A model generated the notes under the pieces. That model was not told the origin of the DNA. It made no database searches and worked only from the letters and a program-made list of their open reading frames with translations. Both the position numbers and the translations under genes were made by a program. 64,000 nucleotides of DNA from Comamonadaceae bacterium PBBC2 (GTDB lineage Bacteria > Pseudomonadota > Gammaproteobacteria > Burkholderiales > Burkholderiaceae_C): positions 20,154 to 84,153 of the forward strand of contig NKIO01000007.1 of NCBI GenBank assembly GCA_002255935.1, written 5' to 3'. Each line of letters starts with the position of its first letter. The first letter of the stretch is position 1. Below, piece after piece: positions 22,791 through 26,922 of the stretch.

Positions 22791-23022
22791 CTGGGCAGAC
22801 TGTTCACAAAAAGTAGACTGGATGAATTCGGGGCTGCAGTGCGTGGCGAGGTCTGAAAAAAGTGACTTTCTACTTGATTTGCACACATCAATCAGCGCGG
22901 CATCACTATCTAGAACAGCAAAGAATTGTCCAGTTACAACCTGTTGCTGCATTTGCAAGTTCCATTCGAACCTGAAGCACCTCGTGACGAGTCACTGCCT
23001 AAGCATTCCATCCCAAGCACAC

Positions 23023-24036
23023 TCATTGAAATCCCTCAATCATCTGAATGAGGGATGAGCTTGGAACTCCATAACTCACTATCCTCACGTCTAAATCTTC
23101 ATGCACAGCCATTTGGAGCGCATTGCGGATAGCCAGATCAATCCAGGAATCGTCGTTTCCAAAAGCGCCACCACCAAGCCGAGTCAGAAACACTACGTTC
23201 GACACGCCCCGCTTCGCGTTGAGGACTCCCGCCCACATCGTGGCTTCGTAGGCAGCTTGCAAGACTAGACTTGCAAACGAATTCCATTCTTTCGTGGGAA
23301 TTTGACAGTAGGCTACTGGCAAAGCCGAACAGAACGCCTGTGATACTTTCGACCGTATCGGTACATCGGCATCGGTTACTTCAACATCACTGTGCAATCC
23401 AATACGCAACTTCCCACCCAAAGAACTCATTTGCACAGGAGAAAGCGAATCGAGATACGCGGTGATGTTACGAAGAGCAACTTTGTTGCATATGGCATAG
23501 CCATTTCGCATGTTCCAGAGGTCGGAGCTTGAGCATCCTATGGCCTCACTTACAGCGTTGCCTATGTCCGTTAGACCATTTAACTGACGCTCTTTCGTCT
23601 GTCCTTCGACGCCCTCAACCTCTGTAAAGTAGTTGCGATAAATCGTAGCTGCTCCAGCCGCAATGGCGCAAGCCGGTCCCTGTGTAGGGTCTCCTTCGTA
23701 TCGACCGACACCATGCTCTGGCGTTATTGAAGGAGCAACCATTTCAAGCAGATTGAACTGCGAGGCAACTTGGAACAGTGCACCGGCGTTCTCGGGCAAC
23801 TGGTGAATTTTTCGTACATCACCACGTACCAGACGAAGTTTGAGTTGACCAGGCACACCACCAAATTGATTAACCCTGTCCCGCAATGTTTTGAGCTGGA
23901 CCAATTCGAGTGTCCCAATCTCGTAGCTCTTGCCATTCACAAGGGATTGGAGTTGAGATCCATCAACTCGCAACTTACTTTTCGTCTCGCTGTAGTCGGT
24001 CTCGGAAAACCCCGTCAATTTTTCAAACCAATTCAC
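23023..24036 (-). CDS. Uncharacterised protein with macro-domain-like C-terminal segment
   Basis: FQVASQFNLLEMVAPSITPEHGVGRYEGDPTQGPACAIAAGAATIYRNYF ... VVFLTRLGGGAFGNDDSWIDLAIRNALQMAVHEDLDVRIVSYG; resembles the macro-domain phosphate-binding loop (inference). Confidence 0.5.
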   Translation of the reverse strand: MNWFEKLTGFSETDYSETKSKLRVDGSQLQSLVNGKSYEIGTLELVQLKTLRDRVNQFGGVPGQLKLRLVRGDVRKIHQLPENAGALFQVASQFNLLEMVAPSITPEHGVGRYEGDPTQGPACAIAAGAATIYRNYFTEVEGVEGQTKERQLNGLTDIGNAVSEAIGCSSSDLWNMRNGYAICNKVALRNITAYLDSLSPVQMSSLGGKLRIGLHSDVEVTDADVPIRSKVSQAFCSALPVAYCQIPTKEWNSFASLVLQAAYEATMWAGVLNAKRGVSNVVFLTRLGGGAFGNDDSWIDLAIRNALQMAVHEDLDVRIVSYGVPSSSLIQMIEGFQ

Positions 24037-24214
24037 TCTTACTTCCTTTCGGATATGAAACGCAAATCCGTAGGTTGATGAAAACCGTACTTGCTTCTGT
24101 TGGACGGCGTTGAAGACCCGTCGAACTGCTGAACCGATCTTAGGAACTTTCCATGTTCAGCCCCATGTATGTGTTCGCTATGGGGCGAGTATTGATAAGG
24201 GTAATGTTGCGTGG

Positions 24215-24535
24215 TCAGTCGTCATCGAAGGGGGGGAGGTCTGAGGCATCCTCCGTCATCCAGCGAAAGAGTTCTGCCTGGACTGTCCATGCAAATTCCT
24301 CGATAGCCTCTCGCTCATCTGGCACAGGTTTTCCCGACGCTAGCCAGGCCTCGTAACTCCAGACCCAGCCCATCCAGCCAATTCGCAGTTTGATACTGCC
24401 GTTAGGATGTCGCCAAAAATCGGCAACCGAGGTACTAGTGAGTTGGATACTGACGCCAGGGACCACACACCTTCGCAAGCCCCTGGCGTCAAACCGGGGC
24501 ACACCCTTGTAGAGATAGGGACTTGCGGCCGCCAT
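24215..24535 (-). CDS. Small hypothetical protein with acidic C-terminus
   Basis: Start MAAASPYLYKGVPRFDARGLRRCVVPGVSIQL...; 2 bp after the upstream gene's stop codon; ends DLPPFDDD. Confidence 0.5.
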   Translation of the reverse strand: MAAASPYLYKGVPRFDARGLRRCVVPGVSIQLTSTSVADFWRHPNGSIKLRIGWMGWVWSYEAWLASGKPVPDEREAIEEFAWTVQAELFRWMTEDASDLPPFDDD

Positions 24536-24537
24536 AG

Positions 24538-25077
24538 CTATCCCGCCAGCACTTTCCCAAAGACGGCGCTGCCGTCGGTTACCAGTTCTCCGAACTGGTG
24601 GGTATCCCGATTGAGCACTCGGAACCCAGTTACATGTTTCTTCTTTATGTTCCACTGATAGAGTAAGACGTTGCAGGCGTGGTAATGGTCTGCCACTTCT
24701 TCCATGCGGGCGATGTCCTCGGCGGTCGGCATTGGTGCGCTACCTCCTTTCACCTGTATCCACATGATGTCGAATAGGTCTAAGTGCTTGAGGTTTTTGA
24801 ACTCTCCTTGCGCAGGTACATCCCATTTCTTTCGGATGGCCAGGATGTCAACAATGCCAGCGGACTCTCTGCCATTTGGACCCAAAAATTCAACCCATTG
24901 CCATCGCCCCTTGTGTTTGTTGGACTCACGCTTCAGGTGTGCCTTCGCCAGTGTCGTTGCTGATTTCGCAGTTTTGATGGCATCTCCGGCGGCAACTTGC
25001 ATCTTCGTTGGTTCTGTCTTTTCCATCTTTCTGTTCCCCTTCTGAGTGTTGATTGGGTTTGATGTTTTCGTGGTCAT
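24538..25077 (-). CDS. Hypothetical protein with possible PD-(D/E)XK nuclease-like core
   Basis: WVEFLGPNGRESAGIVDILAIRKKW...FDIMWIQVKGG gives an E...D...QVK arrangement; start may be the internal MEKTEPTK. Confidence 0.5.
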   Translation of the reverse strand: MTTKTSNPINTQKGNRKMEKTEPTKMQVAAGDAIKTAKSATTLAKAHLKRESNKHKGRWQWVEFLGPNGRESAGIVDILAIRKKWDVPAQGEFKNLKHLDLFDIMWIQVKGGSAPMPTAEDIARMEEVADHYHACNVLLYQWNIKKKHVTGFRVLNRDTHQFGELVTDGSAVFGKVLAG

Positions 25078-25092
25078 TCTGGACGCGTTTGC

Positions 25093-26034
25093 TCAACTCG
25101 AACTTGCGGTGCTCACAAAATTCCTTGGGTTGAGAACTTCCTCGCCACTCCAACGATAGGCAACCAATGGCCCGCCTTTGCCGGCGCTGTAGTCCACACA
25201 CGCCATGCGTTCAGCCTGCAATGCTGGTTCACCCTGCATCCAATAGTGACCAAAGAACACTGGCTTCTTCTGGTCATAGCTGGGTTTGGAATACATCACA
25301 TGCATGTCAGGCAACTTCGCCCTGTCCACGTCGGGCATCAATGCCAGGTCACGGTAGCTTGATGCCAGTTCATCCCACCATCGAACGCGGACATTGCGCC
25401 TCTCATGGCCGTCCTTATCATGGAACGTATACCCAGATGGCAAAGCTACCTCCAGCCCTTTGGTAAGTCCTTCTACAGCCCTGAAGACCAAGTCATTGCT
25501 GCGACTTGCTCTAACCATCAGTTCAGGCGTCAGTGTGCGACCCTGTCCAAGCAGCGGCTCCAAATCCGTCATGTACCCATCGTGCCAACAGGCATGCACC
25601 ACCCGCAGCCCTGGTAGGTCCAGCCACAACGGAAGCGTAAGGAACCAGTCGATGATTTCCGCGTGCAGGGGCGTCCCTTCGACTTCGGCAAGAAATGCAC
25701 TGTGCTGATGACGATTCTTGCTTCCTAACTCGCCGTGTCGGGGGCGCAGGAAATGGCCACTATCTCCGCCAGCGGAGTCCGGCAGATGCCAGGCGATCGC
25801 ATTGAACTCATGATTACCGAGGATGGCCATCGCACTGTCGGCTTCGACCATGCCTCGTGCCAACCGGTAAACGTCGATTTGCCGAGGTCCCCGGTCAACG
25901 AAGTCACCGACAAAGATAGCCTTGCGGGTTGGATGCCGGTAGGCACCTAACATGTTGCGGTAGCCCATCGCCTGTAGCAGAGCCTCCAGCTTGTCTGCCT
26001 GCCCATGAACGTCACCAATAATGTCGTATTCCAT
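25093..26034 (-). CDS. Metallophosphoesterase (PPP/PrpE-ApaH-like)
   Basis: MEYDIIGDVHGQADKLEALL, IFVGDFVDRGPRQIDVY, ILGNHEFNA, VVHACWHDGYM, PVFFGHYW. Confidence 0.9.
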   Translation of the reverse strand: MEYDIIGDVHGQADKLEALLQAMGYRNMLGAYRHPTRKAIFVGDFVDRGPRQIDVYRLARGMVEADSAMAILGNHEFNAIAWHLPDSAGGDSGHFLRPRHGELGSKNRHQHSAFLAEVEGTPLHAEIIDWFLTLPLWLDLPGLRVVHACWHDGYMTDLEPLLGQGRTLTPELMVRASRSNDLVFRAVEGLTKGLEVALPSGYTFHDKDGHERRNVRVRWWDELASSYRDLALMPDVDRAKLPDMHVMYSKPSYDQKKPVFFGHYWMQGEPALQAERMACVDYSAGKGGPLVAYRWSGEEVLNPRNFVSTASSS

Positions 26035-26047
26035 TTTTCACCTACCT

Positions 26048-26097
26048 TAGTTGCATAATGACACTATTATAAACTAGTTAGTGGCAAAGTGCAACTA
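26048..26097. promoter_or_regulatory. 50-bp dyad-symmetric candidate operator in the divergent intergenic region
   Basis: TAGTTGCA (26048-26055)/TGCAACTA (26090-26097) and CACTA (26062-26066)/TAGTG (26079-26083), plus TG/CA at 26059-60/26085-86, all centred at 26072.5. Confidence 0.6.
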
Positions 26098-26756
26098 TGG
26101 ACGCAATTCGCAAGCTCTATCCCCTGGTGGGCGTTGACATCGCGTTATTTAGCGTGGACGACGAACGACTGCAAGTTTTGCTGGTTAAACGGGTTCAGGA
26201 ACCTGCTGCCAAGCAGTGGGCATTGCCCGGGGGAATGCTGAAACCAGATCAAGATACCTCTTTGGAGGCAGCGGCCCGGCGGGTACTGGCGCACAAGGTC
26301 AGCGTTGAGCTGCCATTGGTCGAGGAGGTCTCCACATTCAGCGGACCGGACCGAGACCCGCGCGGCTGGTCTGTGTCGGTGCTGTTTTATGCGTTGCTGC
26401 CCAAAGACAAGGTCGACGCATTGGTCCGTAATAAGGTCGAAGCGCTTGAGTGGGCTGATGCCTCCGCGCCTGGTCACAGGATGGCATTTGACCACTCCAA
26501 ACAACTTGCGGCGGCCGTACACAAATTGCGGGCCAAGGTGAAGTCGGGCAAGCTGCCGTTGCATCTCTTGCCTGAAAGATTCACGTTGTCCCAACTTCAG
26601 CGGAGTGTGGAGGTCATCCTAGGTCAGCCGCTTGATAAAAGTTCGTTTCGTCGACAGCTTAAAAGCTCTGCGGACCTTGTCCAGCTTGACGAATACGAAC
26701 GCGGTGCACAGCGACCCGCTCAGCTTTTCAAGCCTAGTGAGGAATTTAGTTTCTGA
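26097..26756 (+). CDS. Nudix-related transcriptional regulator, NrtR-like (degenerate Nudix + C-terminal wHTH)
   Basis: YPLVGVDIALFSVDDERLQVLLVKRVQEPAAKQWALPGGMLKPDQDTSLEAAARRVLAHKVSVELPLVEEVSTFSGPDRDPRGW; C-terminal LPERFTLSQLQRSVEVILGQPLDKSSFRRQL; catalytic glutamates of the REUXEE motif absent. Confidence 0.8.
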   Translation: MDAIRKLYPLVGVDIALFSVDDERLQVLLVKRVQEPAAKQWALPGGMLKPDQDTSLEAAARRVLAHKVSVELPLVEEVSTFSGPDRDPRGWSVSVLFYALLPKDKVDALVRNKVEALEWADASAPGHRMAFDHSKQLAAAVHKLRAKVKSGKLPLHLLPERFTLSQLQRSVEVILGQPLDKSSFRRQLKSSADLVQLDEYERGAQRPAQLFKPSEEFSF

Positions 26757-26922
26757 GTTCAGTCGCAATGAAGAGGACGGTGTAGTTGTACGCGGCTCTA
26801 CAGGAATGTTCGCAAAAGATGGGGCGGTCTAGTAGCCGCATCGGCACCATCTTATTTGATAGTGTTCCGCTTTGGGTCGTTTCCGACCAGAGTTGCCTGG
26901 TCAACACTTGCCGGAATGGCTA

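Follow-up and report, generated by a model that had tools for sequence, protein, structure and literature searches.

The closest described system to the protein considered here, as judged by structural match, is the bacterial-type PARG (PF10021/TIGR02452), represented by the T. curvata (3sig-3sij) and D. radiodurans (5zda-5zdg) structures and characterised by the catalytic motif GGGx6-8QEE. Defence of bacteria against RNA-targeting ADP-ribosyltransferase toxins is a known function of PARG enzymes (PMC11833690), and provides a precedent for the role proposed below. The core fold is common to the MacroD-type proteins (E. coli YmdB, alphavirus nsP3), while the arginine-specific macrodomains MavL/Larg1 (DUF4804) carry neither the PARG nor the MacroD catalytic motifs and catalyse without QEE (PMC10951314). 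At the level of gene systems, Iyer et al. 2022 (PMC9503650, section 3.8) predicted host systems with ARH at their centre that would reverse viral ADP-ribosylation, and NAD+ salvage is described for phages as NadV-NadM (PMC9503650, section 3.6) and as the NARP pathways (PMC12774641).

The protein in question, P0001, is encoded in a window of 64,000 nucleotides, the whole stretch of DNA that was analysed, from Comamonadaceae bacterium PBBC2. The 337-aa open reading frame reported in an earlier note on this DNA is indeed present at 23023-24036; its strand, which had gone unstated, is the minus strand (24036 to 23023), with a GTG start at 24036. A good ribosome site, AAAGGAAG, lies just 5' of this GTG, and the start is further supported by the N-termini of homologs, which begin M[NSD]WFEKLTGF where P0001 begins MNWFEKLTGF. 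The features of the gene are as follows.

23023-24036, minus strand: 337-aa PARG-like macrodomain protein P0001, based on the ORF, the ribosome site, homologs and modelled fold
23740-23778, minus strand: residues 87-99, LFQVASQFNLLEM, a strand together with the opening stretch of the predicted catalytic loop, corresponding in position to PARG LNFAN (alignment and model)
23674-23685, minus strand: TQGP, residues 118-121, a helix start where PARG has QEE
23317-23340, minus strand: QAFCSALP, residues 233-240, a core strand colinear with PARG SFISCAAP (alignments)
23155-23175, minus strand: GGGAFGN, residues 288-294, diphosphate-binding loop by match to PARG GCGAFGN (hhalign and joint alignments)

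AlphaFold2 models of P0001 were obtained from 9 sequences (pLDDT 89.1, pTM 0.91) and from 5 sequences (pLDDT 74.2, pTM 0.81), and in the former the strand before the predicted catalytic loop spans residues 87-91. When the better model was compared with the PDB using Foldseek, the first 13 matches were the T. curvata and D. radiodurans PARGs (E 1.3e-6 to 1.5e-5, probability 1.00), with 3sih (E=1.3e-6, probability 1.00), 5zdb/5zdc and 3sig among the top structures, followed by YmdB (target TM 0.65-0.67) and by alphavirus, coronavirus and MAF1 macrodomains. Nearly all matches at E<=0.001 were to a macrodomain or PARG and the poorer model gave an identical ranking; against PARG the model reaches moderate TM-scores, of 0.41-0.46 by query and 0.50-0.59 by target. 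Two hallmarks of macrodomains are found, namely the alpha/beta core (pLDDT 89, Foldseek probability 1.00) and, after the strand 281-284, a G-rich phosphate loop with an aromatic residue, GGG[AV]F.N, which is present in 41 of 46 distinct full-length homologs. The earlier note had proposed a macrodomain-like fold, to be given up if a confident unrelated fold emerged; Foldseek returned macrodomains and PARGs, and the modelled fold of P0001, specifically that of a PARG-like macrodomain, is well supported. In BFVD, full-length matches were found to giant-virus proteins at 32% identity and TMq 0.84-0.88. The Yasminevirus match has an E of 1.6e-30, a TMq of 0.88 and 32% identity; the others are to Bodo saltans virus, one of them bearing a RING-finger protein name. 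Below these came remoter hits, together with viral proteins labelled 'Microbial-type PARG'.

A profile-profile comparison with seven bacterial PARGs using hhalign, of the kind that the earlier note had suggested, aligned the C-terminal GGGAFGN loop (E=0.0015) and nothing else, at a probability of only 16.6%. In joint alignments LGGGAFGND of P0001 falls on PARG WGCGAFGND, in keeping with the original reading of GGGAFGN as a macrodomain phosphate loop, and QAFCSALP falls on SFISCAAP; at the catalytic loop the MAFFT joint alignments are ambiguous, with SQFN placed on PARG NFAN in two of three settings. P0001 and the bacterial PARGs have in common the diphosphate loop G[GC]GAFGN, the strand-helix layout and the colinear SCAAP/CSALP strand, but the P0001 family has SQFNLLEM...TQGP where PARG has GGGx6-8QEE, and P0001 itself has a catalytic loop about 9 residues longer, an N-terminal extension of about 80 residues and no Pfam match. 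The N-terminal segment previously suspected of being an active site sits at the PARG catalytic-loop position, but the PARG catalytic motif is absent from it: QEE was found in none of the 46 distinct full-length family members, and GGGx4-12QEE in 0/43 members as against 6/7 control PARGs. As the structure and diphosphate loop are shared and GGG..QEE is absent, we describe the protein as PARG-like and, by the catalytic motif, not as a PARG. The MacroD-type catalytic loop Nx6GG[VLI] occurs in only one of 43 members, and the MacroD-type proteins, than which P0001 is larger, rank below PARG in Foldseek. Membership of DUF4804/MavL was considered because MavL likewise lacks the canonical motifs, and was rejected, both of its signatures, [VIL]xGxGxGx[FWY] and WDxx[SA]xPGN[DE][FY][FWY], being absent (0/43 for each) and no Pfam match to DUF4804 being found.

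No Pfam, NCBIfam or PADLOC family matches P0001, a Pfam search of nine family members at E up to 10 found neither PF10021 nor DUF4804 nor any macrodomain family, and a PDB sequence search with P0001 gave no match. Two candidates were set aside: the CRISPR-associated structure 6qzq (Cas DxTHG family), matched marginally by the family profile in the PDB at E=0.046, to which the model fold lends no support, and a PHROGs 'endolysin' family, the sole PHROGs match (one member, E=0.0002), which is incompatible with the fold. The protein is not the orphan it was first taken for, since it has hundreds of homologs, which in the rows inspected are entered as 'hypothetical protein' or carry no annotation. 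From these, 46 distinct full-length sequences were gathered from bacteria, plasmids, phages and a giant-virus-like contig. The homologs, for the most part 42-60% identical, occur in proteobacterial and Saprospirales MAGs, on IMG/VR contigs and, in PLSDB, on 339 plasmid records (Klebsiella 260, Escherichia 58), of which 288 are conjugative; among 5426 complete E. coli genomes a close DNA match was found in six, all plasmid-borne. Gene length had hinted at a second copy next to the one on the E. coli plasmid, a suspicion that was then rejected. By gene content, assessed by eye, one locus (L017/L018) belongs to a T4-like phage, one (L015) to a prophage tail region and one (L020) to a giant virus, and INPHARED phages gave no match. 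In L020 (7374-9263) the domain is embedded in a protein of about 620 aa with long additional N-terminal sequence. Presence is patchy, with the gene in 5/274 genomes of the window's class and 7/399 of its phylum, and in 7/388 of the class and 28/246 of the family (Saprospiraceae) to which locus L005 belongs.

Across this range the segments singled out from the P0001 sequence are conserved beyond chance, the N-terminal one having been rightly described as strongly constrained. SQFNLLEM is intact in 45 of the 46 homologs and TQGP is kept in all 46. The exception, L014 (8001-9008), has its SQFN motif interrupted by an in-frame TAG (S*FN), and is either a decayed copy or a sequencing error. Elsewhere Q89, P106, G109, Y113, D116, R134, N135, Y136, Q146, Q151, N178, G179, Y180, Q233 and Y243 are among the invariant residues, in a set chosen for SQFNLLEM, so that positions 92-99 are invariant by construction; the unfiltered alignment has the same pattern. 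That these positions are kept in bacteria, in phages and in a giant-virus-like contig alike gives the family an enzyme-like conservation pattern.

We consider the best explanation, and a reasonably likely one, to be that P0001 is a mobile PARG-like macrodomain whose rebuilt active site frees a target from its ADP-ribose. P0001 very probably binds an ADP-ribose-type ligand, with the GGGAFGN loop expected to hold the diphosphate of the ADP-ribose part of a conjugate. That it hydrolyses such a conjugate rather than reading it is the likelier possibility, in which case the rebuilt loop SQFNLLEM...D-TQGP would cleave the bond between ADP-ribose and target in place of the PARG QEE glutamates, its candidate catalytic residues being two acids (E98 and D116, both invariant) and two amides (N95 and Q119).

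As the canonical catalytic glutamates are gone (QEE is missing from all 46 homologs), P0001 could instead be a reader, a catalytically dead macrodomain that only senses or sequesters ADP-ribose, or one that soaks up soluble ADPr signals (cyclic ADPr isomers, for instance). Some macrodomains are sensors, soluble ADPr derivatives may be what phage ADPr domains act on (PMC9503650), and a TIR-domain gene lies about 870 bp downstream of one Klebsiella plasmid copy. We regard this as unlikely, because conservation peaks within the predicted catalytic loop, at polar or acidic residues (E98, D116, Q119, N95, N135), a pattern more typical of enzymes, and because catalysis without QEE is known in other macrodomain classes (MavL/DUF4804, PMC10951314).

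For the preferred reading, of an ADP-ribose-removing enzyme, the gene context points to ADP-ribose/NAD+ conflict biology. In the window, P0001 and its neighbours are carried on an AT-rich island that was probably acquired as a unit.

22800-26900, no strand: AT-rich island carrying P0001 and its neighbours, with a GC content of 52.5%, below that of any other 4.1-kb stretch in the window (for which the mean is 60.4 and the SD 2.3)
24215-24655, minus strand: 146-aa ORF between P0001 and the nuclease-like gene, its true start probably internal, with no Pfam, NCBIfam or PADLOC match
24538-25077, minus strand: 179-aa ORF with VDILAIRK...WIQVKGG, a possible PD-(D/E)XK-type nuclease (pattern by eye), with a weak PADLOC match to PDC-M41B (E=0.005) and no PDB relative
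25093-26034, minus strand: calcineurin-like metallophosphatase, on the same strand as P0001 and upstream of it (PF00149, E=2e-11)
26097-26756, plus strand: NrtR/AraR-type Nudix and winged-helix regulator, divergent from the phosphatase (PF21906, E=3.4e-20; PF00293, E=6.3e-12)

The island is set inside a polysaccharide-utilisation region, and Variovorax megaplasmids carry relatives of the 179-aa ORF next to genes for a WYL protein and a PD-(D/E)XK nuclease. The regulator is 30-32% identical to the NrtR proteins of two NAD operons (L004 and L091), but could instead be an AraR-type sugar regulator, because the flanking genes serve polysaccharide use. Close homologs of the regulator and the phosphatase are missing from most of 25 sampled relatives.

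No neighbour common to all loci of the family was found, and most copies, among them most of the Saprospiraceae loci, L003, L007, L056-L058 and the Klebsiella plasmids, are without an NAD/ADPr neighbour. In L004, by contrast, NrtR, ARH, NadM-Nudix, the P0001 homolog, NAMPT, Prs, PARG, NADAR-Macro and Tpt1/KptA follow one another on the same strand, as identified by Pfam and, for the adenylyltransferase half of NadM, by eye. This nine-gene operon (L004, 35-8564) brings together four ADP-ribose-removing enzymes (ARH, PARG, NADAR-Macro and the P0001 family), Tpt1 and nicotinamide salvage (Prs, NAMPT, NadM-Nudix) under NrtR, and looks like a closed unit for recycling ADP-ribose to NAD+. L005 retains NadM-Nudix, the P0001 homolog, NAMPT and Prs, and L091 has NrtR, Prs, NADAR, Tpt1, a calcineurin-like phosphatase, a NAMPT sharing 33% identity with its L004 counterpart, and the P0001 homolog. 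Adjacency to NAMPT within two genes would be expected by chance at about 1 in 1000 per locus, assuming that NAMPT occurs about once per genome. All three loci are from Saprospiraceae but L091 is on a separate tree branch from L004/L005, and therefore the link with NAD+/ADPr genes either arose twice or is old. Compared with phage NAD+ salvage and NARP, L004/L005 likewise have NAMPT, NadM-Nudix and Prs, but are bacterial operons, to which L004 adds ARH, PARG, NADAR-Macro and Tpt1.

Elsewhere the homolog occurs with a WYL regulator, an HD hydrolase (phosphatase), a SNF2-type helicase and a PLD-type protein (L055), or is preceded by a DSP phosphatase (L014). On the Klebsiella plasmid pKP100-mcr8 (L121, 3030-6566) a SRAP peptidase, the P0001 homolog, a 107-aa protein and, on the opposite strand, a TIR-domain protein follow in succession. 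Parts of the kinds predicted for the ARG-centred host systems of Iyer et al. 2022 (PMC9503650), namely an NrtR or WYL regulator, a calcineurin, DSP or HD phosphatase, a nuclease or helicase and an ADPr-removing enzyme, are seen at some loci of this family, with the Nudix regulator in the window, L091 and L004, and WYL with HD in L055. Those systems centre on ARH, which among these loci is found only in L004; in the window, L014, L055 and L091 the P0001-family macrodomain would replace it.

The NAMPT/Prs/NadM/Tpt1 operons of L004, L005 and L091 would also suit a housekeeping enzyme of NAD+ salvage, not a conflict gene, that clears ADP-ribose by-products such as ADPr-1''-phosphate from Tpt1 or O-acetyl-ADPr; the carriage of the gene by plasmids and phages, its scarcity (only about 2% of the genomes sampled from two groups, and 11% of those from Saprospiraceae) and its lack of a fixed location make this improbable. 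That the macrodomain likeness is a modelling artefact and the true fold different, as the lack of any sequence-profile match to a macrodomain family, at E values as high as 10, might suggest, is scarcely credible when two models from different alignments concur, the probability 1.00 matches are specific to PARGs and macrodomains and three motifs are colinear with PARG.

A role in conflict for the mobile ADP-ribose-removing macrodomain seems a fairly probable one. Plasmids and phages would spread the family as an accessory conflict gene, whose product would reverse ADP-ribosylation, or remove an ADP-ribose-type signal, made by a phage, rival or host. In some genomes the released ADP-ribose may be returned to NAD+, via Nudix to ribose-5-P, Prs to PRPP, NAMPT to NMN and NadM to NAD+, under the control of an ADP-ribose-sensing NrtR.

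The P0001 family is an unrecognised branch of the macrodomains, for which an earlier account may exist in a subscription journal or preprint. More tentatively, it may represent a class of ADP-ribosyl hydrolases new among macrodomains, with a chemistry of its own (SQFNLLEM...D-TQGP for QEE), a linkage specificity outside that of known hydrolases, and a function as a counter-measure to NAD+/ADP-ribose immunity on conjugative plasmids of clinical Enterobacteriaceae, in phages and in giant viruses. The family's catalytic loop, though strongly conserved, resembles that of no described class; the family would therefore offer a hydrolysis chemistry of a new type or, failing that, a new reader, which is directly testable. 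It would add to the macrodomain hydrolases a widespread unannotated branch, borne by hundreds of sequenced plasmids, many from clinical Klebsiella, and by giant viruses, and the Saprospiraceae operons suggest a closed loop in which the ADP-ribose removed is turned back into NAD+.
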